Source: an uncultured Methylococcaceae bacterium
Lineage (GTDB): Bacteria; Pseudomonadota; Gammaproteobacteria; Methylococcales; Methylococcaceae
Direction: 5' to 3'
Length of the DNA: 35,812 nt
Assembly: GCA_903911305.1 (NCBI GenBank)
Contig: CAIWDB010000016.1
Span: 1 to 35,812 of the forward strand
Shown here: one piece after another, positions 12,584 to 31,475 of the stretch
How positions within the stretch are numbered: the stretch's first letter is position 1
How the letters are laid out: the number at the start of each line of letters is the position of its first letter
Position numbers and translations under genes: made by a program
The notes under the pieces: model-generated
What the model was told of the DNA's origin: nothing
The model's database searches: none
The model's input: only the letters and a program-made list of their open reading frames with translations

Positions 12584-12692
12584 GGTTCCCAAGCTCCAGC
12601 TTGGGAACCCATGTATTGCAAGCTCTGCTTGGTGGTTTCTCTGGAAGCTGGAGCTTCAAAAGCCGCATTCCCAAGCTGGAGCTTGGGAACGA
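12584..12692. repeat. REP-like palindrome cluster
   Basis: Three palindromes in a row: GGTTCCCAAGCT/AGCTTGGGAACC (12584-12609), GAAGCT/AGCTTC (12644-12657) and TTCCCAAGCT/AGCTTGGGAA (12668-12689). All have centres of only 2 bases. The group follows the SUMF1 gene at once and runs almost into the next small gene. Confidence 0.85.
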
Positions 12693-12715
12693 GCAAACGA
12701 GCAATAGGTTATATA

Positions 12716-12955
12716 TTGGCTATAAAATTCGTTGTCTGTCTCGACAAGCAAGACTTAGGGGATTTTTCCAACGTAGATATTACTGTGGGTCGGGTTTATG
12801 AACTTGTCGAAGAAAATGCTGGCAATGACATGATGCGGATTATTGACGAATCGGGCGAAGATTATCTTTATCCATCATCTTGGTTCGCGACTATAGTGTT
12901 AGGCGATTCCACAGCCATACGGCTTCATGATGCTTTGACAAGGCTTTCAGTTTGA
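12716..12955 (+). CDS. small hypothetical protein
   Basis: The product has 79 residues from the TTG at 12716. It reads AIKFVVCLDKQD, then ITVGRVYELVEE, then MMRIIDESGEDYLYPSSWF. This recalls a widespread small family built around IGKVYEV and RIIDESGEDYLYP, of unknown function. No ATG is in frame near the start, and the ribosome site is weak. The REP cluster ends just before it, so the original 5' end may have been replaced by repeat sequence. Confidence 0.6.
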   Translation: MAIKFVVCLDKQDLGDFSNVDITVGRVYELVEENAGNDMMRIIDESGEDYLYPSSWFATIVLGDSTAIRLHDALTRLSV

Positions 12956-12997
12956 TTCAGCGGAACTTGGGAACGAACACAAAATCGAGGTTGGAAT

Positions 12998-13168
12998 ATG
13001 AAGTCTGAATTCACAGCAATTGTTAAACAAGACGGTGATTGGTGGCTAGGTTGGGTCGAAGAAGTCCCCTGTGCCAATGCGCAGGAAAAGACCAAGGAAG
13101 AATTACTGATTAGCCTTAGAGAAGCCGCAGCAGATATTCTGGAATTAAGGCGTAAGCAAGCTATCTGA
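12998..13168 (+). CDS. HicB-like small protein
   Basis: The product has 56 residues: KSEFTAIVKQDGDWW, then WVEEVP, NAQEKTKEELLISLREA and DILELRRKQAI. This is the partial RNase H-like fold of HicB antitoxins without the DNA-binding tail. No hicA toxin gene is next to it. GAGG stands 7 bases before the ATG. A near copy with a damaged 3' half lies at 14481-14636. Confidence 0.75.
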   Translation: MKSEFTAIVKQDGDWWLGWVEEVPCANAQEKTKEELLISLREAAADILELRRKQAI

Positions 13169-13219
13169 ACAAAAAGCAAATAATATTGGTAAGCATGAAA
13201 TCAACGGTGGTTAAGCAAA

Positions 13220-13441
13220 ATGGCACATCAAACATTAATTTATATACCTGATGAATTGCTCATCGAATTGTCTCAATGGACACCCGACCTTAACGAGCAG
13301 TCGAATATTATTGCCGAAGCCTTGCGTAACTTTTTCGCAACGCACAAGAAAAGTTCTGACGATTTAGACAAAATCAATGCTTTTGCCGATGAATTAAACC
13401 AAGAAGCTGAGGATGTTCTCGATTATCAGGTGATGCCTTGA
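13220..13441 (+). CDS. ribbon-helix-helix antitoxin-like protein
   Basis: The product has 73 residues. LIYIPDELLIELSQWTPD and QSNIIAEALRNFFATH fit a ribbon-helix-helix DNA-binding domain. The acidic second half is typical of the toxin-binding part of an antitoxin. Its stop overlaps the start of a MazF-like remnant, the normal layout of an antitoxin-toxin operon, so it is very likely the antitoxin of a now broken MazF system. Confidence 0.78.
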   Translation: MAHQTLIYIPDELLIELSQWTPDLNEQSNIIAEALRNFFATHKKSSDDLDKINAFADELNQEAEDVLDYQVMP

Positions 13442-13566
13442 AGAGAGGCGATTTGTACCGTGTGGCTCATTCTCTGGCGCGTGACCCAAAGAGATCAAGG
13501 GTTTTTGTAAAAGAATTGAATGAGGCAATAAAGCTTGCATTAAGCATTGATATTTTTCAAAGTTAA
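13438..13566 (+). pseudogene. MazF/PemK-type toxin with large internal in-frame deletion
   Basis: The frame from the TTG at 13438 gives 42 residues. KRGDLYRVAHSLARDPKRSRVFV is the usual N-terminus of a PemK/MazF endoribonuclease. It is joined directly to KELNEAIKLALSID, which resembles the last helix of the same proteins. The middle, about 60-70 residues with most of the beta-barrel, is absent. The frame is kept across the joint. It overlaps the antitoxin gene by 4 bases. A toxin activity is not expected. Confidence 0.75.
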
Positions 13567-13599
13567 AAAAGCTAATAAACATGTAATGTAATGTAGATA

Positions 13600-14409
13600 A
13601 TGATCCGTTATCGTTATTTTATTCTTTTATTACTCGCACTGCATACTTCATTTGCACCAGCCCAAGAGCAGTGGTTACTGTCCTACCAAGGAAAGTCTGC
13701 CAACGAATTTATTTGGGACAAGCGCACGGTTGGCCTGATTAAATCAACCATTCCGAATCATTTATCAGGCAAGCTGTTGGACGGCTTGGGTGGCCCTCCT
13801 GACCCTGTCCGTATATCAGAGAATCGCTACTTTTCAACCTCGGCTTGCAAACCTCATGAATGCTTCACTAAATCTTTCTACTGGTATGACATGCACACTG
13901 GAAAATCCATCGGGGCTATTTTGAATGATGGGGGTAGGCTTTCCATCTCTTCCAACAATATTAATGCCAACGACATTCCAAAATCAGCGATTGGCGATTT
14001 ACGTCGCTGGCTGTCGGAAATCGACAAAACTCCAACGCAAGTCAACTTTGTACCCAGTCATGGAAAGTATATTCGGCTTCAAGCAATAGACTTTCAGCCT
14101 TTTGAGAAATTTCAACCCACTGCCAATGGCCCTAGCTTCGATTGCCATAAAGCAAATACTAAAATAGAAGACCTCATTTGCAAAAACCCTGAACTATCAA
14201 GAGTTGACCTTGAACTTCACACGCTATATAACAATATTTATTATGCAAATTCAACGCTTCCTGCTAGGAGTCAGTTATCGATATTTCAGAGAAACTGGCT
14301 TCGCTCCAGAGACGCATCATGCAATAATGCCGACAACATAGAAGCCTGTTTAATGGATAACTATAAATTGCAAAAAAATGCTTTGATGCATTGGCTCCCA
14401 CATCAATAG
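13600..14409 (+). CDS. secreted DUF1311 (LprI-like) protein
   Basis: The product has 269 residues with a signal peptide (FILLLLALHTSFAPAQ, cleaved near residue 21), so it is exported to the periplasm. The C-terminal 90 residues hold the DUF1311 pattern: FDCHKANTKIEDLICKNPEL, a helix with DLELHTLY and FQRNWLRSRDASC, and a last cysteine in EACLMDNY. Four cysteines probably form two disulfides. The first 150 residues match no family that I recognise. DUF1311 domains include the lysozyme inhibitor LprI of mycobacteria, but a similar role here is speculative. Confidence 0.75.
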   Translation: MIRYRYFILLLLALHTSFAPAQEQWLLSYQGKSANEFIWDKRTVGLIKSTIPNHLSGKLLDGLGGPPDPVRISENRYFSTSACKPHECFTKSFYWYDMHTGKSIGAILNDGGRLSISSNNINANDIPKSAIGDLRRWLSEIDKTPTQVNFVPSHGKYIRLQAIDFQPFEKFQPTANGPSFDCHKANTKIEDLICKNPELSRVDLELHTLYNNIYYANSTLPARSQLSIFQRNWLRSRDASCNNADNIEACLMDNYKLQKNALMHWLPHQ

Positions 14410-14480
14410 CGTGGCAAGATGATTAAATACTTGTATTCCAGAATATTAACCAATGAACCAAAAATTGAACAATTGTCATT

Positions 14481-14636
14481 ATGAAAACCAAATTCACAGC
14501 AATTGTTAAACAGGACGGCGATTGCTGGTTCGGTTGGGTCGAAGAAATTCCCGGCGTGAATGCGCAGGAGATATCAAAGGAAGAATTGCTGACAAGCCCA
14601 AGAATCGTTTTTCCAAATTCAGACAAGTTTATGTAG
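14481..14636 (+). pseudogene. truncated second copy of the HicB-like gene
   Basis: The 51-residue frame begins KTKFTAIVKQDGDCWFGW and continues EEIPGVNAQEISKEELL, nearly the same as the gene at 12998-13168. After LLTS the similarity ends and the frame runs into unrelated sequence before stopping 5 bases before the next gene. The normal helix ending (REAAADILELRR) is lost. This looks like a duplication whose 3' half was replaced when the downstream methyltransferase gene was joined to it. Confidence 0.7.
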
Positions 14637-14641
14637 ATAAT

Positions 14642-15538
14642 ATGAAAAGTCCGGTAATTGACAAATATGAGGCATGGGAATCTGTACGGCGTTCGCATCA
14701 AGCAGGAGTATTCGACACGAATGTATTGCGTACCATAGAATCTTTGTTGCCTCAGCGGGTGGAGAACAGCGCGGAAACGGGTTGTGGCAAATCAACCATA
14801 TTATTTTCCAATATCTCAGATCATCATACCGTTTTCGCGTTGAATGACAGAGATGCAGGGGAAGGCTCTTCAGTGTTGTTTTATGAGGAATGCCCGCTAA
14901 CTCGCATGGATCGGATCACATTCATTGCTGGCCCGACTCAACAAACATTACCCGCGTTTGACCAATTTCGCCCACTAGACCTTCTACTTATTGATGGACC
15001 CCATGGATTTCCGTTTCCAGAGTTGGAGTACTACTATTTCTACCCGCATCTGCGTCCGGGCGCGTTGCTCATTCTGGATGATGTGCAAATTCCAACCATT
15101 GGCCGCCTTGCCGACTTTTTGGCTGAAGACGAGATGTTCGAAACTGTTGATTTGGTGGAAGGCACGGCAATATTCAGACGCACCGACGCACCAACATTCG
15201 ACCCGCTCCAAGACGGGTGGTGGACCCAACGCTACAACCGTCGGCGAGTTTCGTCCAAACGGGATATATTTCTCCCGAGTGAATCAGTCACCGACCACTT
15301 CACCGAACAGCATCTCGATTGCCGCTTGCATGAAGGTGAAGGTTTTGAAGATCATCAGAACAAGACTCTTAACGAACAAATCGAGCGTTTAAATATCACC
15401 CTCGGCAAACGCGATGAAGAAATTGTTAATCTTAGAAAAGAGATTGATGCCGCCAATTCGACATTAAATCAGCTATTCTCCAGTTCTTCATGGCGAATCA
15501 CAGCTCCAATAAGACAGTTCATGGGGTGGTTGCGTTAG
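14642..15538 (+). CDS. class I SAM-dependent methyltransferase with C-terminal coiled coil
   Basis: The product has 298 residues from the ATG at 14642; the frame is open further upstream only as a shadow in the HicB-like remnant. The fold begins at ENSAETGCGKSTILFSN (SAM loop), then LLLIDGPHGFPFPELEYYY and GALLILDDVQIPT, as in Methyltransf_24 type proteins. Residues about 235-280 form a coiled coil (QIERLNITLGKRDEEIVNL). It ends with SSSSWRITAPIRQFMGWLR, a tail often seen on glycan-biosynthesis enzymes. The substrate is probably a sugar or glycan, by analogy. Confidence 0.78.
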   Translation: MKSPVIDKYEAWESVRRSHQAGVFDTNVLRTIESLLPQRVENSAETGCGKSTILFSNISDHHTVFALNDRDAGEGSSVLFYEECPLTRMDRITFIAGPTQQTLPAFDQFRPLDLLLIDGPHGFPFPELEYYYFYPHLRPGALLILDDVQIPTIGRLADFLAEDEMFETVDLVEGTAIFRRTDAPTFDPLQDGWWTQRYNRRRVSSKRDIFLPSESVTDHFTEQHLDCRLHEGEGFEDHQNKTLNEQIERLNITLGKRDEEIVNLRKEIDAANSTLNQLFSSSSWRITAPIRQFMGWLR

Positions 15539-15735
15539 ACACCAATGAATATACACCTAATCTATTGAATTCGATTGGAGCGTCAAGGCTTGCCTTGCCT
15601 TGACGGGCAAAGCGATCTTTGCCATTCTGTTCAAAATATTAATAAAATAGGCAGGCCGGTGGGAGTCCGTGTCGAAATTAACGGTCAAAGCGGTTAACGC
15701 CGCTGTTTAACCAATCAACAGAAAGAGGTAAGTTT
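15539..15735. promoter_or_regulatory. hairpin and possible fdsA promoter
   Basis: A hairpin with arms CGTCAAGGC (15581-15589) and GCCTTGACG (15597-15605) could end transcription from upstream, although no T-run follows. A possible promoter TTGCCA (15619-15624) and TAAAAT (15643-15648) with an 18-base spacer would let fdsA be transcribed by itself. The long leader and an AGAGGT ribosome site lead to the fdsA ATG. Confidence 0.45.
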
Positions 15736-18582
15736 ATGTCATTAGTACGCGATAAAGACTACGGAACCCCCGCCAGCCCGTCCGAGAAAAATGTGACGGT
15801 GGAAATCGACGGCTTTAAAGTCACCGTGCCGGAAGGCACGTCGGTAATGCGAGCTGCGTCCAGCATAGGCATTGAAATCCCAAAACTGTGCGCAACGGAC
15901 AGCATAGACCCGTTTGGCTCCTGCCGTTTGTGCGTGTGTCAGGTGGAAGGCGGCAAAGGTTATCCGGCTTCTTGTACGACTCCGGTTTATGAAGGCATGA
16001 AGGTGCAAACCGAAAATGCCAAGCTGAATGAAATCCGCAAGGGCATCATGGAGTTGTACATTTCCGACCACCCGCTGGATTGCCTCACTTGCCCGTCGAA
16101 TGGCAATTGCGAGTTACAAGATATGGCCGGTACGGTCGGCTTGCGGGAAGTGCGGTATGGCTACGAAGGTGAAAACCACCTGAAAGCCGAAAAAGACACT
16201 AGCAACCCGTATTTCACGTTTGACCCGAGTAAATGTATCGTCTGCTCGCGCTGCGTCCGTGCTTGCGAGGAAACTCAAGGCACGTTTGCGCTGACTATCG
16301 ACGGACGGGGCTTTGACTCTAAGATTTCGCCGGGGCAGAATGAAGCTTTCATGGATTCCGAATGCGTATCCTGCGGCGCGTGTGTGCAAGCCTGCCCGAC
16401 CGCGACCCTGATGGAAAAATCCATCTACGAACAAGGTCAACCCGACCATAGCATCACCACGACGTGCGCCTATTGCGGCGTGGGTTGTTCGTTCAAGGCC
16501 GAAATGAAGGGTGCGGAAGTGGTGCGTATGGTTCCCGACAAAAACGGTATGGCCAATCATGGGCATTCCTGCATCAAGGGCCGGTTTGCGTTTGGTTATG
16601 CCACTCACCCCGACCGTATCACCACTCCGATGATCCGCAAGAGCATCAACGACCCATGGCAGAAAGCGTCTTGGGATGAGGCGATTGATTATGCCGCATC
16701 TGAATTTAAGCGCATCCAAGAGAAGTATGGGCGTTATTCAGTAGGCGGCTTAACGTCCAGCCGTTGCACCAACGAAGAAGCCTATCTGGTGCAAAAGCTG
16801 GTTCGCGCCGCGTTCGGCAACAACAACGTGGACACTTGTGCCCGCGTATGCCATTCGCCCACGGGTTATGGACTCAAGCAAACCTTGGGTGAATCCGCCG
16901 GCACACAGACATTTGATTCGGTGATGCAATCCGATGTCATCATGGTCATCGGGGCCAACCCAACGGACGGGCATCCTGTGTTTGGCTCATTGATGAAAAA
17001 GCGTCTACGTCAAGGCGCCAAGCTGATCGTTGCAGACCCGCGTGACATTGATCTGGTCAGATCGGCCCATGTGCAAGCCGATTATCATCTCAAGCTGCGT
17101 CCCGGCACGAATGTCGCGTTGGTCAATGCCATCGCCCATGTGATTGTCACCGAAGGACTGGTCAAAGAGGACTTCGTCAACGCCAAGTGTGAAGTTGATT
17201 CATTCAAAAAATGGCGCGATGTCGTTTCCCAAGAACGTAACTCACCAGAATCCAGCGAAGTGCATACGGGTGTCCCGGCCAAACTGGTCCGCGAAGCCGC
17301 CCGGCTTTACGCCAAAGCGGGAAATGGTGCGATTTATTATGGCTTGGGCGTGACCGAACATAGCCAAGGCTCAACCACCGTCATCGGCATTGCCAATTTG
17401 GCGATGGCGACTGGCAACATTGGACGGGAAGGCGTGGGTGTAAACCCCTTGCGCGGTCAAAACAATGTACAGGGTTCTTGCGACATGGGCTCGTTCCCGC
17501 ATGAACTGCCAGGATACCGCCATGTGTCCGATTTGGAAACCCGTACCTTGTTCGAGTCGGTTTGGGGGGCCAAGCTGGAAGCCGAACCAGGATTGCGCAT
17601 CCCAAACATGTTCACCGCCGCGATTGATGGTTCATTCAAAGGCTTGTATTGCGAAGGCGAAGACATCGCCCAGTCTGATCCCAACACCCAACATGTTGAA
17701 GAGGCGTTAAGGTCAATGGAATGCGTAGTGGTTCAAGACTTGTTCCTCAATGAAACCGCCAAATACGCTCATGTGTTTTTACCCGGTGCATCGTTCTTGG
17801 AAAAAACCGGCACATTCACCAATGCCGAACGTCGCATTTCGCCGGTTCGCCGCGTTATGCCGCCGAAAGCCGGTTATGAGGATTGGGAAGTCACTCAATT
17901 ACTGTCCAACGCCTTGGGCTATGAGATGAACTATTCCAGCGCCAAGGAAATTCTCGACGAAATTGCATCCTTGGTGCCGACCTTCAAGGGTGTCAGCTTC
18001 AAAAAGCTGGACGAATTGGGCAGTGTGCAATGGCCTTGCAACGACGAAGCGCCGACTGGTACGCCGACGATGCACATTGAAGAGTTTGTGCGCGGCAAGG
18101 GACGTTTCATGCCGACCGAGTATGTGCCGACCAGTGAACGCAGCAACAGCAAATATCCGTTGCTCCTGACCACGGGACGCATTCTGTCGCAATACAATGT
18201 CGGCGCTCAGACCCGTCGCACCGACAATGTGGCTTGGCATCCAGAAGACCGTTTGGACATCCATCCGCATGATGCCGAAGTGCGCGGGATTGTCGATGGC
18301 GACAAGGTGTCCATTGCCAGCCGTGCCGGGGTAACCGTGTTACACGCCAGAGTCACGGAAAAAATGCAGCCGGGCGTGGTGTACACGACCTTCCACTTCC
18401 CTGAATCCGGCGCAAACGTCATCACCACCGACAATTCTGACTGGGCGACCAATTGCCCGGAATACAAGGTGACGGCGGTGCAAGTCACCAAGGTGACTGG
18501 CTTCTCGGAATGGCAAAACGGGTTCAAAAGCTTCACCGAGCAGCAATTGTCCATGTTGGAGAATGCCACGACGGCTGTCTGA
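15736..18582 (+). CDS. fdsA: NAD-dependent formate dehydrogenase alpha (catalytic) subunit
   Basis: The product has 948 residues and oxidises formate at a molybdenum or tungsten bis-guanine-dinucleotide centre. In order: an N-terminal [2Fe-2S] domain (C52, C63, C66, C80), a His/Cys [4Fe-4S] site (DHPLDCLTC), a two-cluster ferredoxin domain (CIVCSRCVRAC near 167 and CVSCGACVQAC near 210), a further [4Fe-4S] site of the catalytic domain (CAYCGVGC near 244) and the molybdopterin domains to the end. The metal ligand is expected to be C372 in ARVCHSPTG, an ordinary cysteine codon and not selenocysteine. It is separated from fdsGB by other genes. Confidence 0.96.
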   Translation: MSLVRDKDYGTPASPSEKNVTVEIDGFKVTVPEGTSVMRAASSIGIEIPKLCATDSIDPFGSCRLCVCQVEGGKGYPASCTTPVYEGMKVQTENAKLNEIRKGIMELYISDHPLDCLTCPSNGNCELQDMAGTVGLREVRYGYEGENHLKAEKDTSNPYFTFDPSKCIVCSRCVRACEETQGTFALTIDGRGFDSKISPGQNEAFMDSECVSCGACVQACPTATLMEKSIYEQGQPDHSITTTCAYCGVGCSFKAEMKGAEVVRMVPDKNGMANHGHSCIKGRFAFGYATHPDRITTPMIRKSINDPWQKASWDEAIDYAASEFKRIQEKYGRYSVGGLTSSRCTNEEAYLVQKLVRAAFGNNNVDTCARVCHSPTGYGLKQTLGESAGTQTFDSVMQSDVIMVIGANPTDGHPVFGSLMKKRLRQGAKLIVADPRDIDLVRSAHVQADYHLKLRPGTNVALVNAIAHVIVTEGLVKEDFVNAKCEVDSFKKWRDVVSQERNSPESSEVHTGVPAKLVREAARLYAKAGNGAIYYGLGVTEHSQGSTTVIGIANLAMATGNIGREGVGVNPLRGQNNVQGSCDMGSFPHELPGYRHVSDLETRTLFESVWGAKLEAEPGLRIPNMFTAAIDGSFKGLYCEGEDIAQSDPNTQHVEEALRSMECVVVQDLFLNETAKYAHVFLPGASFLEKTGTFTNAERRISPVRRVMPPKAGYEDWEVTQLLSNALGYEMNYSSAKEILDEIASLVPTFKGVSFKKLDELGSVQWPCNDEAPTGTPTMHIEEFVRGKGRFMPTEYVPTSERSNSKYPLLLTTGRILSQYNVGAQTRRTDNVAWHPEDRLDIHPHDAEVRGIVDGDKVSIASRAGVTVLHARVTEKMQPGVVYTTFHFPESGANVITTDNSDWATNCPEYKVTAVQVTKVTGFSEWQNGFKSFTEQQLSMLENATTAV

Positions 18583-18593
18583 AACCCATTGAC

Positions 18594-19469
18594 GTGAGCG
18601 ATAATAACTGCATTTTAAGTCAATCCAAGCCCTCGCCCACCAGCGGGGGCTTTGCTTTGTCTGGTAAACTACGCTGGCTGGCTACCAAAACCTATCCTGT
18701 TGAGCGTTGGCAAGGAGGTGTGTGGCAGCAAGCGAAAGATGCAGTTATCGAAGAAGCTCCGGTGGCATTGTTTTACAATAACGTACCTCATGTCGTCATG
18801 TTAGCTACCCCATTGGACCTTGAAGATTTCGCATTGGGGTTTAGCCTAACCGAGGGTATCATTGGTTCGCCAAGCGAACTGAACTTTGTTGAAGCCTATC
18901 ATCGGGAGGATGGCATTGAATTATGGATGCGGATTCCGCCAGAACGTTTTGAGCAACTGTCCCACAAAGAGCGCAACCTGACAGGACGAACGGGCTGCGG
19001 TTTGTGTGGGTCAGCAACGATTGCGCAGGCTGTCCGCCACCCTCCCCCGGTCGGCAAGGGAGTTTCTGTGACCGTTGAAGCATTACGTCAAGCCTTGCGT
19101 AGCCTTGAGGAACATCAGATTTTGAACAAGCAGACGGGGGCAGTCCATGGGTCCGCATGGGTAGTTCCAGAAAAGGGCATCGAGTTTATCCGTGAAGATG
19201 TGGGCCGACACAATGCTTTGGATAAGCTGATTGGTGCATTGGTGAAGTCGGGTGCTGATAGGGACAAAGGCTTCGTCATCGTCACCAGTAGAGCCAGTTT
19301 TGAAATGGTGCAAAAATGTGCAATGGTCGGCATTAGCTTAATGGTTGCGATTTCAGCCCCAACTGGCTTGGCTATAAGGCTTGCCGAAGAAACTGGATTA
19401 ACCCTCATTGGCTTTGCGAGGGAAAATCGGCACACGGTTTACGCCAACTCACAGCGGTTGGTTTTATAA
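18594..19469 (+). CDS. fdhD: formate dehydrogenase accessory sulfurtransferase FdhD (FdsC)
   Basis: FdhD passes sulfur from a cysteine desulfurase to the molybdenum cofactor of formate dehydrogenase. The CxxC site is TGCGLCGS. The motifs EEAPVALFYNN and LEDFALGFSLTEGII and the later VGRHNALDKLIG are typical. The start is uncertain. GTG at 18594 gives 291 residues but lacks a ribosome site. TTG at 18657 gives 270 residues, close to the usual length, and follows the G-rich arm of a hairpin. It is followed by fdsD. Confidence 0.92.
   Translation: MSDNNCILSQSKPSPTSGGFALSGKLRWLATKTYPVERWQGGVWQQAKDAVIEEAPVALFYNNVPHVVMLATPLDLEDFALGFSLTEGIIGSPSELNFVEAYHREDGIELWMRIPPERFEQLSHKERNLTGRTGCGLCGSATIAQAVRHPPPVGKGVSVTVEALRQALRSLEEHQILNKQTGAVHGSAWVVPEKGIEFIREDVGRHNALDKLIGALVKSGADRDKGFVIVTSRASFEMVQKCAMVGISLMVAISAPTGLAIRLAEETGLTLIGFARENRHTVYANSQRLVL
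18627..18652 (+). terminator. terminator-like hairpin between fdsA and fdhD
   Basis: A ten-pair stem, AAGCCCTCGC (18627-18636) with GCGGGGGCTT (18643-18652), has one G-T pair and a six-base loop CCACCA. It is followed by TGCTTTGT rather than a pure T-run. It lies 45 bases after fdsA and either inside or just before fdhD, depending on the fdhD start. It may partly stop transcription and lower fdhD expression relative to fdsA. Confidence 0.55.
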
Positions 19470-21734: not shown

Positions 21735-24700
21735 TCACTTAGTTTCATCAATGACTAACACATCCCCGCCGCCCGATTCAATTGGGTTCGATAAGATCTC
21801 TATGATGCCGGCACCAAACGTATAACCCCCACCAAATGCACATAAGCCTATGCGTTCGCCTTTTTTATGAGTCGCGAGTACGTCTTTCAAACAAATGGGT
21901 ATACTGGAAGAAGATGTGTTACCAAAATGCCGGATGTTGGAATAAAGCTTATCCTCTGGAAGACCCAAGCGACCCCGGATTGCGTCAATAATGCGTTGGT
22001 TGGCCTGATGGGGGACAATGCAATCCAGTTGCTCAATCGGTAAAGAGGCATCGTGGCAAGCTTTCTTCAAAATTGCCATCATACTTCGAACTGCCTCTTG
22101 GAATACGCGATGCCCCTTCATTTGAATATAGGGTGCTTGGCTAAAACCAAGGGGGACACTTAAATTATTTCCCTCGTCTGGTTTTGAACTGATGACGGGC
22201 CGATAGAGCATGGCTTTCCATTGCGCAAAATGATCGCCCCCCATCAACACTGTGGCCGTGGCCGCATCTCCAAACAAAGGAAAGGTGGAAAAATCTTCGG
22301 GATCTACTTTTTTGGACAAACATTCAGCGGTGACCAGTAACACCCTTCCTTTTGGTAAAGTATATAGGAAATCATAGGCATTCGAGAGTCCGTAGATATA
22401 GCCGGAGCATGCCGCAGATATGTCATAGGCGGGGATTTGCACATCATTTTCGTCAATCGAGAGATCCTTGAGGATCAAACAAGCCAAGGAAGGGCACATG
22501 CTTAATGGCGTACCTGACGAACAGATCAAAAGGTTAATGTCTTTAATGCTTAGCTTCGCAGAAGCCAGGGCTTCGCGTGCGGCTGTGACAGCCAAGCCAA
22601 GTATAGTCTCCCCTTCGGCAAGACGGGGGCGGGTGACTATGCCGGTCAACCGCTCCAATTCCTCGGGAGTGTGATCGCTTAACTTGGCTAGAACCTTTGG
22701 ATTGTCAACCCAATCGGAACCTGTGGCATAGGCTATCGACCCTATCCCGGCAAACAGGTTGCGCCGACGCTCGCGCAGTACATGCATGCGTCGATCCAAA
22801 ACAGGTTTCGGCCTATGTTTGGAAAATACGGGAAGTCCAACATCTTCACGACTCACTGGCTTTTTTGACACCCTCGGGTTTTGCAAACGAATGGCTAGGA
22901 TGGGAGTTCCTAGTTTGACCGATTCCCCAACCGGAACCAAAATTTCTTCTACGGTGCCAGAAATCGGGCTCTCCAAATCCATGACGGCTTTTGACGCCTC
23001 CAATATTGCCAAGATTATCCCTGGGGAGATGACGTCGCCCAGCTTCACCTTCCATTCGAGGATTTCCACAGTTTCGTCGGAAGGGCTGGCACCAATAGCT
23101 TCCACAAAATATATTTCTTGATCAGTTTCAGTGGTCTTTTCCCAAATTACATCCATTCTGAGCATGGACGCCACTTTTTCCACTACCCGCTTGAGGGATG
23201 GCAATACTTCGAGTTGGTTGGCAAAATGATAGGGAATAAATGTATCTTCACGAGCCAGTCTCGCCGATTGAATGTGTCGATGGGCTTTCTCCGCCACAGT
23301 GGCTAAGATTTCAGCACCAAAACCGACAGTATGGTTATCCTCGTGGACAACTAATATCCGCCCCGTTTTCATTGCTGATTCTATTACAGCCTCTTCATCC
23401 CAAGGGGATATGGATCTTAAATCTAAGATTTCCAACGACACCGATTCCTTTTCAAAAAAAACCGAAGCTTGCTCGCAAATGGGAACGGTGTTACCCCAAG
23501 CCACGATTGTAAGATCATGTCCTGAGCGGACGAGTCTCGCTTTCCCTAGAGGAACACGATGGACAGCCGGCTGAATCGCGGCTGCAAGCTCCTTATTTTG
23601 TAGTAGATTTTTTGGGTAAAAAAAGATGGTCGGTCGGCCACTATCAAATGCACTATTTAATAATCCAGAAGCGTCGGCTGCGTTGGATGGCAATAGGACA
23701 TCAATCCCAGGAATATGTGCCGCCGTCGCTTCCATACTCGCGGCATGATAGGGGCCAAGGCCAGGTCGATAGCCCCCGCAAGTTATCATCAGGATAAGCG
23801 GAACCTCATATTTCCCGGCAGTACGCCAGTACATGCTGGCCACTTCACTATAGAGCTGGTTGTAGGCGAGCGGAAAAAAATCACCAAATTGAATGAAGGC
23901 AACTGGCCTAAGCCCCCCCAAAGCCCTACCGACCGACACACCTATTATCGTAGCTTCTGAAAGTGGGGCATTGATGACTCTTCCAGGAAATTCTATGGAA
24001 AGACCATGAGTTACTTTAAACACATCACCTTTTGGGTCTTCTATGTCTTCTCCGTAAAGCATGACCCTCGGGTCTCTTCGCAACCTTGCACCTAAGGTAT
24101 CACGGATGGCATCGGCCATAACCAATAAAGTTTCGGTAGGCAACTCAAGCTTAGGAGGGGTTGGCATGTTCGGGCGCTTAACTATTAAATCGACTGATGG
24201 GTCAGGATTATTCTGGGAGGCTTCCCCTACAATCTTGACTTCCTCAATAATTTCATCCCGGATAGACTCAAGAGCTTGTTTGGTAATACCTCTTTTTTGA
24301 AGGTTAAGTTCAAGCAACAGTATTGGATCGCGCTTCTTGTTCTCGTTTAATTCATCTTCGCTTCGATAGCTAGATTGATCATCAGCATTGGAGTGGTCAC
24401 ACAAACGCACAACATGAAAAACTACCAGAGCAGGCCCCCGAGTTTCCCGTATTTTGGCGACAATCGGACCGAGAGCATTGTAAGCAGCTTCAACATTTGT
24501 ACCGTCAATATGATGCAAGGGAAGCCCAAACCATCGGTCATTGGGTCCTTGTGGAAGCGAAAAAAAAGTCTTACCTTTAGTTCGTGTGGAAATAGCATAT
24601 TGATTATCTTCCACCATAAACAACACGGGCAAAAAATCCCTGACGGCTGCCGCTACGGCTTCCATCCATTCCCCTTCTTGAGTGCCACCACCTCCACAAC

Positions 24701-25127
24701 CACAATAGACGAAACCTGTTCCGATGTCTTTCAACGTGGATGCCAAACCAACCGACGGTAGCGCATTGTTACCGACAGGAACCGTCATGGGGAGTATCCT
24801 CAGGGCAGGGTCCCCGAGAAAATCTGCCATTTGTCGTCCTCGACAATGAGAAGTGTCTTTGCTGAACAGCGTGTCAAAAAAGGCACTTGGAGGTAGGCCA
24901 TGCGCAAGAAGTAGGGCCTTATCACGATAATGAGGGTTAATCCAATCTTCCTGCGTTAAGTACGGTGCCAGTGCGACAGTGCCTTCATGCCCAGATCCCC
25001 CAATGGTGAAGAATGCCTCGCCTCGCTGGCAGTAAGCCCGTTCAAGGATGTCAATCTCACGGGCCGTCACCATCCAGCGATAAAAAGCGAGGAGTTGTTC
25101 ACGCAAGGGTTTTTCTTCAGCCGTCAT
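21735..25127 (-). CDS. fused 2-oxoacid dehydrogenase E1-alpha/E1-beta, lipoyl domain and ketoacyl-ACP synthase III
   Basis: One 1130-residue frame joins four domains. E1-alpha (about 10-325) has a thiamine diphosphate region ending EDNQYAIS (173-180). E1-beta covers about 330-655 and includes NAPLSEA and HIPGIDVLLPSNAADA. A lipoyl domain (about 675-750) carries K713 in LEASKAVMDLESP as the expected lipoylation site. KAS III (about 790-1115) has Cys907 (SAACSGY), His1040 (VPHQANQ) and Asn1070 (HFGNTSS), the full catalytic triad. No E2 acyltransferase or E3 domain is present. By family knowledge E1 decarboxylates a 2-oxoacid and acylates a lipoyl arm, and KAS III condenses an acyl group with malonyl-ACP; direct transfer between them is inferred. 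It lies 42 bases after creD and faces two methyltransferase genes. Confidence 0.9.
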   Translation of the reverse strand: MTAEEKPLREQLLAFYRWMVTAREIDILERAYCQRGEAFFTIGGSGHEGTVALAPYLTQEDWINPHYRDKALLLAHGLPPSAFFDTLFSKDTSHCRGRQMADFLGDPALRILPMTVPVGNNALPSVGLASTLKDIGTGFVYCGCGGGGTQEGEWMEAVAAAVRDFLPVLFMVEDNQYAISTRTKGKTFFSLPQGPNDRWFGLPLHHIDGTNVEAAYNALGPIVAKIRETRGPALVVFHVVRLCDHSNADDQSSYRSEDELNENKKRDPILLLELNLQKRGITKQALESIRDEIIEEVKIVGEASQNNPDPSVDLIVKRPNMPTPPKLELPTETLLVMADAIRDTLGARLRRDPRVMLYGEDIEDPKGDVFKVTHGLSIEFPGRVINAPLSEATIIGVSVGRALGGLRPVAFIQFGDFFPLAYNQLYSEVASMYWRTAGKYEVPLILMITCGGYRPGLGPYHAASMEATAAHIPGIDVLLPSNAADASGLLNSAFDSGRPTIFFYPKNLLQNKELAAAIQPAVHRVPLGKARLVRSGHDLTIVAWGNTVPICEQASVFFEKESVSLEILDLRSISPWDEEAVIESAMKTGRILVVHEDNHTVGFGAEILATVAEKAHRHIQSARLAREDTFIPYHFANQLEVLPSLKRVVEKVASMLRMDVIWEKTTETDQEIYFVEAIGASPSDETVEILEWKVKLGDVISPGIILAILEASKAVMDLESPISGTVEEILVPVGESVKLGTPILAIRLQNPRVSKKPVSREDVGLPVFSKHRPKPVLDRRMHVLRERRRNLFAGIGSIAYATGSDWVDNPKVLAKLSDHTPEELERLTGIVTRPRLAEGETILGLAVTAAREALASAKLSIKDINLLICSSGTPLSMCPSLACLILKDLSIDENDVQIPAYDISAACSGYIYGLSNAYDFLYTLPKGRVLLVTAECLSKKVDPEDFSTFPLFGDAATATVLMGGDHFAQWKAMLYRPVISSKPDEGNNLSVPLGFSQAPYIQMKGHRVFQEAVRSMMAILKKACHDASLPIEQLDCIVPHQANQRIIDAIRGRLGLPEDKLYSNIRHFGNTSSSSIPICLKDVLATHKKGERIGLCAFGGGYTFGAGIIEILSNPIESGGGDVLVIDETK

Positions 25128-25169: not shown

Positions 25170-26516
25170 TCACTTGTTGGCTTGCCCCAACCCATACCAA
25201 TCTAAATGTCGAGTAGCAGTCATCGCAAGCGTTAACAAGACAAACAATAAAAGGGAACCAAGCATGAGCGCATTATCTTCCGATTGCAATAAGCCAAATA
25301 AGGCAGCGTACAACCCAGCCAGCATGAATCCCGCGCCAGTGGCACGTCGAATGCTTTTCATGACAGCACTAAGATAAAAAACCAGCAATCCCACGCAGGC
25401 TAAGGCGGCAGACAAATAAGCCATGGTGAAACCAATATGCTCGGAAAGACTGAGCAACAACAAAAAGAACATCGCCAATGCAAGCCCCACCAACGTGTAT
25501 TGCGCCGGATGGATGACTAGGTTTTGCAAAATTTCATAAAGGAAAATGGCTGCAAAGGTGAGGCAGACAAACAGGAATCCATATTTCGTCGCCCGGTCAG
25601 ACATCGAATAGATGTTGACGGGATCAATCAAACGCACTCCAAAACTATCGAAACATGCCATCTCCTTGCATTGGTTAAGATTTTCAGACACGTTGGAGGC
25701 CAGTGAATTGACTGACCAATTGGCACTGAAGCCGTCCGCACCCACTTGCTGAGTGGCAGGGTCGGGCAAGAAGCGTCCATGAAATCCGGGATGAGGCCAA
25801 GATGAGGATAAGGCGACATGAGTTTGCCGACCGGCGGGAACCCATTCTAAATCTTCCAGCCCGCGCAATTTGAGGGTGAAGTTGACCGGGATAGTCACTT
25901 TCCCCTCAACATTGCCCAAGTCTTCCAAAGACACATGCATACCAGGGGTTGTCCCAAAGTTCAATCCCGAGCCTTGCTCAAAGGAATGGTGTACGCCATT
26001 CCACTCCAAGCCGGGGGCATCCAACACTCCCCGCATATCGGCCACGGTCACCGCAAGATAAGGTTTGCCTACGGCGAGGGTACCATTGTGCCGTGCTTGA
26101 GGTTTGCCAAATTCCTGGGGAATGTTAAAAACCCCTTTGAATTGTGAATCCAACACATAGGAGCGCACGTTGAATAACCCGCGCTGTTTGGTTTCCGCCG
26201 TCAATTTGCCAGTAATGTCCAATTGTTCAGGCAGCAAATAAAGTTTGATATGTTCGGTACGATTTTCTTGACGCTTGTTCGACTGCCCATTTAACAAGGT
26301 TTCGACGGTTTCTTGCCATTGCTCTAAGTAGGGTACGACAAGCACAGGACCGAACACTCGCTGTTGACCGGCGGAACTGGCGGCTATGTCTGCAATCACC
26401 TCGTTTTGGCGGTAAGTGCGTTCGTTGACCAAGCCTTGGATCATCAACAGCGGAACCAGCAAAGCCAGCGTCAGACCAAACACGACTGAGGCTTTAATCC
26501 AAAGGGTTTTTTGCAT
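25170..26516 (-). CDS. creD: CreD family inner membrane protein
   Basis: The product has 448 residues. The N-terminal helix (ASVVFGLTLALLVPLLMI) is followed by a conserved box VNERTYRQNEVIADIAASSAGQ. A large periplasmic region leads to five or so C-terminal helices. This is the layout of CreD, linked to envelope stability and colicin tolerance in E. coli. The start at 26516 has AGGAG at a good distance; a longer frame starts inside the DUF3999 gene and is rejected. No creBC two-component genes are nearby; instead it follows DUF2339 and DUF3999 genes. Confidence 0.88.
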   Translation of the reverse strand: MQKTLWIKASVVFGLTLALLVPLLMIQGLVNERTYRQNEVIADIAASSAGQQRVFGPVLVVPYLEQWQETVETLLNGQSNKRQENRTEHIKLYLLPEQLDITGKLTAETKQRGLFNVRSYVLDSQFKGVFNIPQEFGKPQARHNGTLAVGKPYLAVTVADMRGVLDAPGLEWNGVHHSFEQGSGLNFGTTPGMHVSLEDLGNVEGKVTIPVNFTLKLRGLEDLEWVPAGRQTHVALSSSWPHPGFHGRFLPDPATQQVGADGFSANWSVNSLASNVSENLNQCKEMACFDSFGVRLIDPVNIYSMSDRATKYGFLFVCLTFAAIFLYEILQNLVIHPAQYTLVGLALAMFFLLLLSLSEHIGFTMAYLSAALACVGLLVFYLSAVMKSIRRATGAGFMLAGLYAALFGLLQSEDNALMLGSLLLFVLLTLAMTATRHLDWYGLGQANK

Positions 26517-26527
26517 GGCGCTGACTC

Positions 26528-28042
26528 CTATGATTTCATTTGTTTGAAAAGCCGCCATGTCATTGCAAGCAACACAAGGACGCCCAACAGCAAAACCCCC
26601 CATAGAATCAATGTGCGGTTCTGCGCTGAATTTTTTGCCGTGGTTGCAGCCGTTTCAAAATCCGTCGAAGTTTGACGAATTTGAAGCGGGCCTGCTTGGG
26701 CTTGTTCCAACTGCAATAACTCTTGAGTGGAAAACCCCGGGGCAACTTGGGATAACTCGACAGCGGCTGATTTAATCTTGTCTCGGCCAAACGCCAAGGT
26801 ATAGGGGGGTGGCCCGTTAATTAGAAAAACCAAAGTGGCTGGTTGCCAGATTAGGCTAAGTTCGGGTTTGCTAGCAGTGACCACTTGAGGATGCAAGACC
26901 CACTCCGCAAAATGCGACACCGGCACGGACAACTCGCCGGAACGACGGGTCTTTTCCGGCTGGGTGATCTGGTAGAAAACCGCTCGGGTAAGTGGTTGAA
27001 ACACCCATTCGTTAGGCTTGCCGAGTTGCCTGCTGGGAATTTCACGATAAGCCCCTATTTGAGCGGGCAAAACGATATTGGGTTCGGTGAAGTGTAGGTC
27101 AATTTTTTCCACCGGGATGGCAATTCCCGCCTTATACATCAAATCATCAGGGAGTTTCCCCGCAATGGGTTGAATCGTCAGTTTGTCCAAAAATGACGCG
27201 GTGGACGTCTTTTCGGAATGCTCTGCATCAATCGACGCAAAACGTATGGGTTCGCCGCTACGCCAACTGAGCCTGGCATAGCGAAATGCTCGGGGCGAGA
27301 ACTCCAAGATGTCATTGACAAGGGTTTCTGAGGTCTGCGTATCCACCAGCCAATTCAACTCGGTGGCTGCAACCATATCCCATTGTTTGAGGTTGTCGCT
27401 GACTTCCAACCATACTTGGGCAGAATAAGTCTGTTTCCCCGGTGGCAAGGTAAACCGCAGTGCGCTGATTAAAGGCTGCTTATTATCATTGTTCACATGC
27501 TTGGCTTGCCCCAAATCAAGTAGCAATCCGACCAAAACCGGCTTGTCACCGATGCCATTTGATCCAGCTTCACCCTTTCGGGGTTTGGTTTTGACAGAAA
27601 GCAAAGTGCCATCTGCTCCCGTTTTGATATCCATATCAATTCCATCGACTGACTGAAGGTTTGGCTGAATTGCGTTTATCTCAAATTGTTTGACTGGCCA
27701 GGATTGTTTTTGAATGCTGTTTTGCGGTGCAGGCACATAAAAGGCAAAAGGTGGTTTGCCCCCGTTCGCGTCGAACACTCGCAAATCGCTGAGATCAGCC
27801 GAATGGGCATTGAGATAAACCAATTGCGGTAAGCGCAAACTAACCACACCCTGCTTACCGGATACCGTTAGGCTTAGGAAATGCGAGTAGTCTGTTGGCA
27901 AGTCGGAAACCGCTTCGGCATCTGCATTGGATGATGATGCGGCGAACACAGTCTGCGGATTAAAAAACCCCATGACTGCGATCAGTAATAAGTAAACCGG
28001 TGATATTTTCATAATGATCCGTTTAGCCCCCGTTCTTGGCAT
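26528..28042 (-). CDS. DUF3999 family envelope protein
   Basis: The product has up to 504 residues. A signal peptide (VYLLLIAVMGFFNPQTVFA) is followed by a long periplasmic part with beta-rich text (SLTVSGKQGVVSLRLP and FRYARLSWRSGEP) and a final membrane helix (LILWGVLLLGVLVLLAMTW). The pattern fits DUF3999. Its ATG overlaps the DUF2339 stop codon in TAATG, so translation is probably coupled; an alternative start is the methionine at 28012. The family nearly always follows a DUF2339 gene, as here. The function is unknown. Confidence 0.82.
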   Translation of the reverse strand: MPRTGAKRIIMKISPVYLLLIAVMGFFNPQTVFAASSSNADAEAVSDLPTDYSHFLSLTVSGKQGVVSLRLPQLVYLNAHSADLSDLRVFDANGGKPPFAFYVPAPQNSIQKQSWPVKQFEINAIQPNLQSVDGIDMDIKTGADGTLLSVKTKPRKGEAGSNGIGDKPVLVGLLLDLGQAKHVNNDNKQPLISALRFTLPPGKQTYSAQVWLEVSDNLKQWDMVAATELNWLVDTQTSETLVNDILEFSPRAFRYARLSWRSGEPIRFASIDAEHSEKTSTASFLDKLTIQPIAGKLPDDLMYKAGIAIPVEKIDLHFTEPNIVLPAQIGAYREIPSRQLGKPNEWVFQPLTRAVFYQITQPEKTRRSGELSVPVSHFAEWVLHPQVVTASKPELSLIWQPATLVFLINGPPPYTLAFGRDKIKSAAVELSQVAPGFSTQELLQLEQAQAGPLQIRQTSTDFETAATTAKNSAQNRTLILWGVLLLGVLVLLAMTWRLFKQMKS

Positions 28043-31000
28043 TATATTGTAGGCGGAGTGGATTGCCCATTGTCGGACTGCTGGCGTGTCTCGGTTGGCA
28101 ATGGAGCGAGATATCCTATTGCCAGCATAAGCAAGCCAACTCCTAAAAACGATATGACACGTTCCAATCCACCAGTATTGGATAGATCGACTAAGAAAAG
28201 TTTGGCAACCACAATACCCAATAAAATAGCCCCAGACATCCAGATTTTACGAAAACGTCGTTGCGCTGCCACACGCATAAGAATCAACGCGGTTGCACTC
28301 CACACCAGTGAGAGCATGGTTTGCACAACATGCGAGTCGAACAGGGAATCGACTTGATAAGGTATGGGCAAAAAAACTGCCACCGTGCGTAACAGCATTA
28401 GGTTAAACCAAGCATAAGCAGCCAGGGCTGCAATCCAAGGCATTTTGGCTTCCCACAGAGGGGGTTGTGCCGTATTCCCCCTCCCCTCTTTTAGCATACG
28501 GTAAGCGGCAAAGCCGAGCAGCGCCGCAAAACCAGTGGTGATATCGAGTGGATTCAATATCGGCAAATAAGGGAGCGGTTCCATCAATCCATTTTGTGTC
28601 AGATTCCATATGACGACTAGGACGATAGCCCAGCCAGCACCTAGCGGAATGAGGACACGCCGATACCAATCCGCAATGGGGACGCAAGGCCAAGCGTTTT
28701 TACGCATCTGCTGCACAACCCAAGCAACCGCCAAAATCATCAGCCAAACGGGCAGATAGCTCGGCCAACTCCCTGACACAAACCAGCCAGCATCATCCAA
28801 TAATACCTGTTCCTCGGGTGTGCCAAGCCCAAGCCAGTGGGTGATCAAGTGGTGTCCGACCGGACAAATCATCAACCACGGACCAATCGTGCGTTGCCCA
28901 TGCAAGGTCTTCAGCCAGAGGGCATCCATTGACCATGCCTTTTTTTGCCAGTATGCCATCAACCATTCACTCACTCCCCACAGGGCTAGATACGCCCACC
29001 AAGTCTCCCGGTAAGCGATATCATCATTGAAGAACATATCTAACAGCATGACAATATTGAACAGACCCAACGCAAACCAAGCCGATAGCCCGAACCAGCG
29101 TAAAGCAGGCCAGCACAAACGATCTGCCAATAAAGCGCATCCATAGGCTAATAAGGCCACACTCAAACCGTAGACGCTCCAATATAGAGATAGACTCTCG
29201 GCACGATAAGGCTCCAAGCCAAATGCAAGCCCGTATTGGCCTTGCACCCAATACGACCATTCATTCAGTACGAATGCAAAGCACCAAAATCCAGACCATA
29301 GCAACAAGCGGTTAGATAGCTTTGAGTATTCCACCTCAGCTTGACGTTGAAAGAACCAACTGCTGAGAAACGCCCCCAAGCCGATCAACAATGCGCCCAA
29401 GAAAGGCCCGGCGAATAGGTTGGGCTGAGGTTCCGTGGTAGAATCAAAACCGGCCATTGCCAAGCATAGAAAAACCAATCCAGCCAGAATCTGTGCCACC
29501 ATCGCGAAAGTTCGGGCAATTTTCCATTGCATTTGCCACGCGATCACGCTCAAAATAATTGCCACTAATAACCCACTCATCGCCAACAAGTTAGCCTCTA
29601 ACGAGTTATCCGTGCGCAGTGCAATTTCGGCCCAAGCACCCGCCAGCATCCATATAGCCGCCAATGCCAGAAATGCAGTGGCAAATGGGGCTAAGTTCAC
29701 TGGGTGGCTAGCTTCATCGGCGGCGGTTTGGCGTCTAAAATTAATCGCCATCATGAACGCAGTGACCGCCAGCAACAGGAACCCTAGCCATAAATTGGAC
29801 TGCATCGCACTGGCTGCATCCAATCCAGTCACCGTACCGACGAATGACATCCAAGCCCCAAACTGCACCAACAAACCAAACACCCAAGCCATGGTTTGGC
29901 GTTGCCGCAACCCCACCCACACCATGCCAGCCCCTTCCAAAGCCCAAGCTGCGGAAGTCCAACGCCCATCCAACGCAAATGGAATGGTCAAGGTGCCAAA
30001 CACCACACCGAGAGCCAAAAAGGATTCCGTCAATAACTTTAACGAGGTGCCTCGACGATGCCATAACAGCACGGCAACCACTGTGTAAAACAAACCCAGA
30101 GCCAATGAAGAGTACGCCAAGCCAAATTCAATATGTTTGACCAAGCCGTATTGCAAACCAAAAGTCACTAACGGAGTGCCAAAAACTAAGGTGGCATCAA
30201 CATAATGCTTTAAATTGGGTGCTTGACGACTGGCATAGAAAATAGTGATCAACACATAGAATAAAAAGAACAAAACAAGGAATAGCTGAACGGAAAGATA
30301 ATGCTCAGGCGAGTATTTCAATACCCCCCATGCTGTTCCAATGATAAAGGTAAATGCAAAACCGATTAAATTGAGTAAACGCCATGAGCGATACAACGAA
30401 ATAACCAATATGCCGGCATTCAAAATGGCATAGTATGAAAACAGCCCAATATGGCTACCCCCGCCGGTTGTGGTCAAAATCGGCGCGGCAAAACCACCGG
30501 CAATCCCGAACACCGCCAACCATAAAGCATCCTGCAACACAGCTAACATGCAAGTGAGTGCCGTCAGCACAAATAATAATGCAAAGGCTATGCTGCCCGG
30601 AAATAGGCCATAAATCTTATAGCCTCCAAATGTCACCAACATTAATATGGCAACAGCCGAACCCTGCACTGGCAAGCTTATCTCTGGCCTTTTTTCACGT
30701 ATCCGCCAAGCCCATGACAACAGCGCAATATCGGCTAAAACAATGCCGACGAGACGATATTCAATCGGCACCGAAATCCGTGCTGCCGCATATTTAAGCA
30801 GGAAACTCACCCCTAAAAACAAAATCAACAAGCCGATTTTAGCGACCAGATTACCGCCGAATAGCCAAGCTTTAATCTTGAGTATCCATTCCGGGGTCGG
30901 TTGTTGAGTGTGTTGACGGGACTCCTTAAGCTTTACATATTCCATCCAAGGGTCAGTGGCGACGTTTGATGCGATGGATTCCGCAACAGTATTGGCATTT

Positions 31001-31380
31001 GCCGAGGTCTGCACCTGTGGCTCTGGTATAATATTGGAGATTTCCGAAGGCGAAACAGAGTCCGTGCTTGTGTTTGCTTGAATCGCTTCGATGGGAGTCG
31101 ATGCAGGGACAGAAGCAGCTAAAACACTGTCTGGCATGACTGTATCTTCAGCCTTTGCCAAAGGCTCTGTTGCTTGTTGAATCTCCGCTTTTGGCGACTT
31201 GGCTTGAGCGGCTGCCAACTCGCCGCTAAGACGAACGACCAACTCATTGAGCTTGCGCACAACTTGATCCAGTTCGGCGACTTTAGCATGTGCATTGCGG
31301 GCCGAGATGAAGGCGATAATTGGGCAAAGCAACAGATAGAGGCCAAAAGCCAGCGCTGCCAGTATGATAATAGCTTCCAT
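28042..31380 (-). CDS. DUF2339 polytopic membrane protein
   Basis: The product has 1112 residues. An N-terminal helix is followed by a short coiled coil (VAELDQVVRKLNELVVRL), a low-complexity Pro/Ala/Ser-rich segment, and then more than twenty hydrophobic stretches. This is the layout of DUF2339. The ATG at 31380 has GGAGA six bases upstream; the TTG before it is rejected. It heads the DUF2339-DUF3999-creD operon. The function is not known; the context suggests envelope stress or integrity. Confidence 0.85.
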   Translation of the reverse strand: MEAIIILAALAFGLYLLLCPIIAFISARNAHAKVAELDQVVRKLNELVVRLSGELAAAQAKSPKAEIQQATEPLAKAEDTVMPDSVLAASVPASTPIEAIQANTSTDSVSPSEISNIIPEPQVQTSANANTVAESIASNVATDPWMEYVKLKESRQHTQQPTPEWILKIKAWLFGGNLVAKIGLLILFLGVSFLLKYAAARISVPIEYRLVGIVLADIALLSWAWRIREKRPEISLPVQGSAVAILMLVTFGGYKIYGLFPGSIAFALLFVLTALTCMLAVLQDALWLAVFGIAGGFAAPILTTTGGGSHIGLFSYYAILNAGILVISLYRSWRLLNLIGFAFTFIIGTAWGVLKYSPEHYLSVQLFLVLFFLFYVLITIFYASRQAPNLKHYVDATLVFGTPLVTFGLQYGLVKHIEFGLAYSSLALGLFYTVVAVLLWHRRGTSLKLLTESFLALGVVFGTLTIPFALDGRWTSAAWALEGAGMVWVGLRQRQTMAWVFGLLVQFGAWMSFVGTVTGLDAASAMQSNLWLGFLLLAVTAFMMAINFRRQTAADEASHPVNLAPFATAFLALAAIWMLAGAWAEIALRTDNSLEANLLAMSGLLVAIILSVIAWQMQWKIARTFAMVAQILAGLVFLCLAMAGFDSTTEPQPNLFAGPFLGALLIGLGAFLSSWFFQRQAEVEYSKLSNRLLLWSGFWCFAFVLNEWSYWVQGQYGLAFGLEPYRAESLSLYWSVYGLSVALLAYGCALLADRLCWPALRWFGLSAWFALGLFNIVMLLDMFFNDDIAYRETWWAYLALWGVSEWLMAYWQKKAWSMDALWLKTLHGQRTIGPWLMICPVGHHLITHWLGLGTPEEQVLLDDAGWFVSGSWPSYLPVWLMILAVAWVVQQMRKNAWPCVPIADWYRRVLIPLGAGWAIVLVVIWNLTQNGLMEPLPYLPILNPLDITTGFAALLGFAAYRMLKEGRGNTAQPPLWEAKMPWIAALAAYAWFNLMLLRTVAVFLPIPYQVDSLFDSHVVQTMLSLVWSATALILMRVAAQRRFRKIWMSGAILLGIVVAKLFLVDLSNTGGLERVISFLGVGLLMLAIGYLAPLPTETRQQSDNGQSTPPTI

Positions 31381-31475
31381 CAAATTCTCCGATTCAGGTA
31401 TTTCGGCGTGTCAGATTATTACAACACAACGGACGGCCAAAATATCTATTTAGATTGGAAATTTATCCATCAATA

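Follow-up and report, generated by a model that had tools for sequence, protein, structure and literature searches.

A gene fusing 2-oxoacid dehydrogenase E1, a lipoyl arm and a KAS III domain in scattered Gammaproteobacteria: a candidate single-chain initiator of acyl chains

INTRODUCTION

In the usual description, bacteria begin fatty acid synthesis from an acyl-coenzyme A (acyl-CoA) by way of the condensing enzyme 3-oxoacyl-acyl carrier protein synthase III (KAS III). A gene from an uncultured Methylococcaceae bacterium raises the question of whether such chains may also start directly from a 2-oxoacid. The stretch of DNA analyzed here (hereafter the window; 35,812 nt) makes up an entire contig, number 16 among the 661 in a 5.84-Mb draft genome, and its gene at positions 21735–25127 of the minus strand joins the alpha and beta parts of a 2-oxoacid dehydrogenase E1 component to a lipoyl domain and a KAS III domain. 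The original prediction, made from the letters of the window, was that the lipoyl arm of this protein, which has no E2 or E3 domain, may serve the condensing domain directly. After comparing the protein with its relatives, we lean slightly toward the view that it is a single-chain chain-initiation enzyme, in which the lipoyl arm would hand an acyl group made from a 2-oxoacid to the KAS III cysteine for extension with malonyl-acyl carrier protein (malonyl-ACP), the arm being reoxidized by Lpd.

RESULTS AND DISCUSSION

Domain architecture of the fused protein

The frame begins with ATG, comprises 1130 codons plus a stop, and is intact, with zero internal stops. The Pfam matches run in the order E1-alpha, E1-beta, lipoyl, and KAS III within this one frame, which confirmed the predicted architecture as more than a chance finding. 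The E1-alpha domain (E1_dh, E-value 3.4e-33) covers residues 17–305 (positions 24213–25079; all features of the gene lie on the minus strand), and is followed by the E1-beta pyrimidine-binding domain, which contains E391 (Transket_pyr, 2.8e-27; residues 337–510, 23598–24119), the E1-beta C-terminal domain (Transketolase_C, 7.4e-27; residues 528–635, 23223–23546), and the lipoyl domain (Biotin_lipoyl, 1.6e-14; residues 687–746, 22890–23069). The KAS III domain (residues 793–1111, 21795–22751) was matched by NCBIfam models and by two Pfam families, ACP_syn_III at residues 901–964 (9.3e-17) and ACP_syn_III_C at residues 1024–1111 (5.4e-26). All six Pfam matches exceed the family cut-offs and form the complete list at E ≤ 0.001; no E2 (PF00198), E3-binding, or PP-binding (ACP) domain is among them, so that the lack of E2 and E3 domains was borne out. 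The protein thus carries the full E1 set of domains, the KAS III models together with a Cys-His-Asn triad, and a lipoyl domain with a modifiable lysine in the turn. This lysine, K713 (22989–22991), the predicted lipoylation site, is invariant in six aligned rows, and it was verified in the translation together with the KAS III nucleophile C907 (22407–22409), H1040 (22008–22010), and N1070 (21918–21920), the last three also by alignment with FabH. The nearest solved chains by sequence were 1um9_B for E1-beta (2.2e-60), 1um9_A for E1-alpha (6.6e-42), and 2ebd_A for the KAS part (3.8e-51), and the best PDB matches of the lipoyl part were E2 lipoyl domains.

Distribution of the four-domain frame

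The search for the same domain order identified seven further genomes, so that the frame is found in eight genomes of five families, the window's own included. It is complete in six (the window, G001, G156, G752, G1011, and G1081; G numbers are our genome handles) and cut by contig ends in two (G002 and G078). The proteins of two congeneric metagenome-assembled genomes (G001 and G002) are 84–85% identical to the window protein, and those of five genomes from four other families, the far members, are 41–49% identical. Within the window's own and related groups, the frame occurred in 3 of 41 genomes, all belonging to the window's genus, in which 3 of 7 genomes carry the fusion. A sample of the class gave matches at E ≤ 1e-60 in 33 of 369 genomes: all four domains were matched in the window's own genome, G078, and G156, E1 plus lipoyl only in G358, and E1 or E1 plus lipoyl alone, at 28–39% identity, in the remainder. 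In a sample of the phylum, 5 of 398 genomes matched at E ≤ 1e-80, the window's own and G752 across all four domains, and G752 was the only match at E ≤ 1e-100 among 200 genomes of its family. In another order, 23 of 396 genomes matched at E ≤ 1e-80, with G1011 and G1081, two of the eight genomes of their genus, matching across all four domains. The genome searches overlap and their thresholds differ, so these counts are not frequencies. Plasmid records yielded 1085 matches, none of which covered 80% of the query. For G002, the end of another contig carries residues 2–69 of the copy, and in the G078 copy, in which 886 residues were read without a stop, the single counted stop was taken as the terminal one. 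The G+C content of the window gene (0.484) resembles that of the window as a whole (0.486), and four far members lie 3–7 points above their flanks.

An artefact of assembly or sequencing that joined separate genes would have to account for this recurrence. Almost all copies come from draft assemblies, and those of G002 and G078 end at contig ends; against this, the frame is uninterrupted in assemblies of several families, and its parts form a single grouping in two trees. The recurrence across assemblies led us to reject an artefact, an explanation with a remaining probability close to nil.

Common descent and selective constraint

Phylogenetic trees were constructed separately for the KAS and E1 parts, the careful trees from subsets of 26 (KAS) and 24 (E1) of the 53 and 50 rows used in quick trees; the quick KAS tree left out the KAS III loci L140, L146, L150, L156, and L159. 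The eight fused KAS domains grouped together in the careful tree (support 99/98; 98% of 200 bootstrap trees), in which G156 formed a very long branch, and also in the quick tree of 53 rows (support 95). The FabH rows formed one group in the quick tree (93), with the fused clade placed outside it, but not in the careful tree, so the exact relation of the fused clade to FabH differs between the trees and is not settled by them. In the E1 tree, the eight fused E1 parts grouped with the KAS-less protein of G358 (100/100), with branching only partly resolved inside the clade. Under midpoint rooting, two E1 genes from Streptomyces, the only two such genes compared, stood beside rather than inside the fused clade (100/100).

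Within the window's genus, the ratio of nonsynonymous to synonymous substitution rates (dN/dS) between the window and G001 was 0.061 for E1-alpha, 0.042 for E1-beta, 0.115 for lipoyl, and 0.053 for KAS, at saturated dS (1.2–1.8); between the window and G002 the respective values were 0.072, 0.041, 0.103, and 0.066. For the close pair G001/G002, the ratio was 0.153 overall, with 0.096 for E1-beta, 0.107 for lipoyl, and 0.131 for KAS, the highest value being that of E1-alpha (given below). These values indicate that every domain is constrained within the genus, E1-alpha least so in the recent past.

The condensing domain lacks the CoA clamp

Residues of the KAS III domain are numbered here as in Escherichia coli FabH, by alignment. 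The equivalents of C112, H244, N274, R249, and G209 and the G-G/A-G loop are kept in all eight fused KAS domains. In the same eight domains, W32 is replaced (by E, D, or G), as are R151 (by F, Y, or P) and F87 (by C, T, S, or V); T28 is altered in all eight and R36 in four, and the K256 equivalent is altered in all eight and that of K214 in seven, beyond the K/R of the controls. Of 28 FabH-like controls, all keep both W32 and R151 and 27 keep F87; these controls ranked next below the window and G078 by score in a class sample of 94 genomes and so lean towards housekeeping FabH. The small residues at F87, a position that we take to act in acyl-size selection, point to an acyl group that probably exceeds acetyl in size. 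They are the one basis found for the branched or unusual starter unit of the original prediction, with F present in none of the eight. According to an excerpt of a FabH study (PMC4606726), W32 and R151 hold the CoA adenine between them, T28 touches the adenine, and R36 contacts the phosphopantetheine. This adenine clamp, the mark of FabH proper, is thus present in 0 of 8 members, and its loss fits a donor other than CoA, as support and not as proof.

The genome's own FabH retains W32, R151, and the other compared residues and lies in the usual setting, with adjoining genes that resemble plsX and fabD by eye; the fused KAS III is therefore additional. The fused domain is 34–39% identical to the 28 FabH-like controls, and its KAS part scored 248.7 bits against the NCBIfam model PRK09352, for which the cut-off is 249.

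Lipoylation and reoxidation in the cell

No E2 domain (PF00198) was found in the four-domain protein or in 20 other frames of the window that were scanned, and the E2 and E3 that would make up a complex are neither within nor beside the protein: two E2s and Lpd are encoded on other contigs. One contig of the genome carries genes for AceE- and AceF-like proteins, and a second E2 and a free Lpd (G000:C238; 58% identical to E. coli Lpd) are also encoded, which makes it likely that both lipoylation and reoxidation of the arm are available in the cell. The redox balance, for which the original prediction had called for a separate answer, has an ordinary candidate in this separately encoded Lpd.

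Proposed reaction

From the chemistry of the family, E1 with thiamine diphosphate (ThDP) would decarboxylate a 2-oxoacid and reductively acylate the lipoyl arm at K713. C907 of the KAS III domain would then attack the acyl-dihydrolipoyl thioester and take the acyl group in place of an E2 or CoA. Malonyl-ACP from the ordinary fatty acid synthase would be condensed with it to 3-oxoacyl-ACP, as the intact Cys-His-Asn triad and the kept Arg249 equivalent suggest, and free Lpd, the gene for which is present, would reoxidize the dihydrolipoyl arm with NAD+. That the lipoyl arm serves KAS III directly, as originally predicted, is the most economical reading. It draws support from the recurrence of the fusion, the lack of an E2 domain, the common descent of the E1 and KAS parts, and the loss of the CoA clamp; the last of these supports is qualified below, as the clamp is also missing from some other KAS III proteins. 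More tentatively, we regard it as quite possible that the fusion serves scattered Gammaproteobacteria as a CoA-free, one-protein initiator of fatty acid or polyketide chains, with the lipoyl arm replacing E2 and CoA, and that the window's genus has a rebuilt E1 metal site (GGG or GSG in place of GDG, and an acidic residue at NN).

If the proposal is true, chains start straight from a 2-oxoacid, the intermediate stays bound, and the choice of starter is tied to keto acids. The protein also offers a one-protein system for lipoyl-to-ketosynthase transfer, and it would, if it is active, be a natural example of an E1 that lacks the usual metal ligand.

Points against the proposal and alternative explanations

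Several observations weigh against direct transfer, and one set of them concerns E1. An excerpt on a solved bacterial E1 (PMC2663715) names D173, N202, and Q200 of the alpha subunit in the Mg2+ site; by counting along the alignment, D173 is the Asp of the GDG motif, N202 the second Asn of the NN motif, and Q200 the residue before NN. In the window protein, the GDG Asp is replaced by G146 (24690–24692), the second, metal-binding Asn is kept as N175 (24603–24605), and residue 174 is Asp instead of Asn, so that the ThDP metal motif GDG...NN reads GGG...DN and the E1 is not wholly canonical, a point that the original prediction had missed. The GDG position is Gly in the window and G001 and Ser in G002, that is, changed in all three genus members, versus D or E in 37 of 38 control E1-alpha sequences. 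It is D in both Streptomyces E1s and in all five more distant members that reach it (the copy of G078 ends before it), with the motif GDG...DN in G156, G752, G1011, and G1081 and GDG...NN in G358. E1 activity within the window's genus is in doubt because this Mg2+-ligand Asp is missing in all three members, and the dN/dS of E1-alpha, at 0.232, moreover exceeds that of the other domains in the close pair G001/G002. The E1 of the genus may accordingly be a non-catalytic scaffold, with acyl groups reaching the lipoyl arm or KAS III from other 2-oxoacid dehydrogenases or from acyl-CoA. We judge this unlikely, though by no means far-fetched, since dN/dS between the window and G001 is low in both E1 parts and other E1 residues are conserved. 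All members have the second Asn, as do the 37/37 controls with a residue there, and the loop His245 is present in every row compared; E391, H461, and H471 of E1-beta, presumably with catalytic roles, are invariant in six aligned rows. The residue before the second Asn is Asn in G358 and 37/37 controls and acidic in the window, G001, G002, both Streptomyces E1s, and the four far members G156, G752, G1011, and G1081; this acid (residue 174) could stand in for the lost ligand. The E1 substrate is not assignable, because NCBIfam pyruvate dehydrogenase E1 models matched far below their cut-offs (215.6 vs 454 bits and 173.9 vs 411.35 bits) and no branched-chain E1 model was among the matches listed (the best 25 of 34 NCBIfam families).

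The KAS part raises further objections. Among 20 other KAS III paralogues, a manual selection of lower-scoring rows of the 94-genome search, W32 is missing in 16 of 19 (kept in 3; L140 has no residue there) and R151 in 6 of 20 (two with Lys; kept in 14). Six of the 20 keep neither residue (L143, L146, L147, L150, L156, and L159, of which L150 and L159 look poorly aligned there), so that clamp loss alone is no demonstration of a lipoyl donor. In addition, no KAS domain was found for the clade member G358, either in its protein or within the 19 kb examined, the neighbors scanned beside the far members (part of all neighbors) differ and show no pathway, and a structure prediction, made from three near-identical rows, reached a mean predicted local distance difference test score (pLDDT) of 31. 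An excerpt on the Bkd system of Photorhabdus (PMC3838401) words its product as isovaleryl-CoA, not as direct transfer. The KAS III domain might use acyl-CoA in the normal way, the fusion only linking supply and the acyl groups of E1-lipoyl going elsewhere, in keeping with its score close to the FabH-type model and with the variable clamp of other KAS III proteins. We give this little credence, as the protein has no E2 to move the acyl group from lipoyl to CoA and the T28, W32, and R151 equivalents are changed in 8/8. It is also distinctly unlikely that the domain works as an acyltransferase from lipoyl to ACP or another acceptor, without condensation and with E1 and lipoyl acting as proposed above. 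Acylating ketosynthases are named in an excerpt of PMC4578411, the F87 and K256 equivalents (8/8) and that of K214 (7/8) are changed, and G358, which lacks a KAS, suggests further possible partners for the E1-lipoyl part; yet the set for decarboxylative condensation (Cys-His-Asn, G209, and the G-G/A-G loop) is kept in 8/8.

Gene neighborhood

A CreD-family gene (25170–26603, minus strand) lies 42 bp upstream of the fusion gene, and no terminator-like site was listed in the 42-bp gap. CreD is present in exactly those three of the seven congeners that carry the fusion; the matched part in G001 and G002 begins at residue 28. Farther upstream, also on the minus strand, are a DUF3999 gene (26528–28042), with a frame of similar size at the same place in G001 and G002, and a gene for a DUF2339 membrane protein (28042–31383), for which G001 has a similarly sized frame at the corresponding place and G002 a cut frame. 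Beside the far members, the scanned neighbors (GreA, SPFH, a periplasmic binding protein, TIR-WD40, and cyanase) are unrelated to each other, and neighbors were dropped as a guide to the pathway.

Other features of these loci were observed in passing. At 8990–19469, the window contains formate dehydrogenase-type genes (NuoF-like, Fdh-alpha, and FdhD) amid sulfatase-modifying-factor-like and methyltransferase genes. In G358 (L060:8626-13228), the E1-lipoyl gene is followed by genes for a SET-domain protein, a WelO5-like halogenase, and an alpha/beta hydrolase, resembling a small biosynthetic cluster. In G078 (L058:1441-1758), a second KAS III C-terminus, truncated and 105 aa long (48% identity in the matched part), is located downstream of genes for TIR-WD40, a formate/nitrite transporter, a kinase-phosphatase, and cyanase.

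Comparison with known systems

FabH shares the Cys-His-Asn triad with the fused KAS III domain, which differs from it in having neither the CoA clamp nor F87. In Photorhabdus, BkdA is an E1 and BkdC a KAS III. According to excerpts, BkdABC forms a 5-methyl-3-oxohexanoyl thioester (PMC4578411, PMC4901931), it yields branched fatty acids when in E. coli (PMC3838401), and BkdB carries an ACP that needs the transferase NgrA (PMC4578411, PMC4901931). Because this system has been described, at least in those excerpts (PMC4578411, PMC4901931, PMC3838401), the concept is less new than the original prediction stated. BkdABC consists of separate genes, with the ACP in BkdB, whereas the window protein is fused and no ACP domain was found in it; compared by description only, the window gene resembles the BkdABC idea realized in one fused gene, minus the ACP.

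Among the rows compared, the nearest kin of the fused E1 are the E1 genes, themselves fused E1-alpha/beta, of two Streptomyces plasmids (NZ_CP061282.1 and NZ_CP108424.1). At both loci (L068:11941-18474 and L069:9908-16437), the fused E1 gene stands directly before a giant nonribosomal peptide synthetase/polyketide synthase (NRPS/PKS) gene, the N-terminus of which comprises lipoyl, E2 acyltransferase, carrier protein, and ketosynthase (KS) domains. Together they look like a loader for a 2-oxoacid starter, in which the acyl group would pass from lipoyl to KS. In contrast to the window protein, which has no E2 or carrier, this putative loader has E2 and ACP between lipoyl and KS, a KS of the modular PKS kind, and a separate E1.

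The route of Bacillus subtilis from 2-oxoacids runs through a free acyl-CoA intermediate. Its branched-chain 2-oxoacid dehydrogenase and FabH follow, in an excerpt of PMC6461809, the same logic from 2-oxoacid to 3-oxoacyl-ACP. Unlike in the window protein, E2 and FabH are separate there. In the actinobacterial OdhA, the partner merged with E1 is a succinyl transferase, and no KAS is known in it. An excerpt of PMC10415282 presents OdhA as a two-in-one enzyme, with E1 merged with another component of its complex. No publication on the four-domain protein was found among the titles and abstract openings listed in searches of the open-licence literature. A split version of the concept is already known from Photorhabdus.

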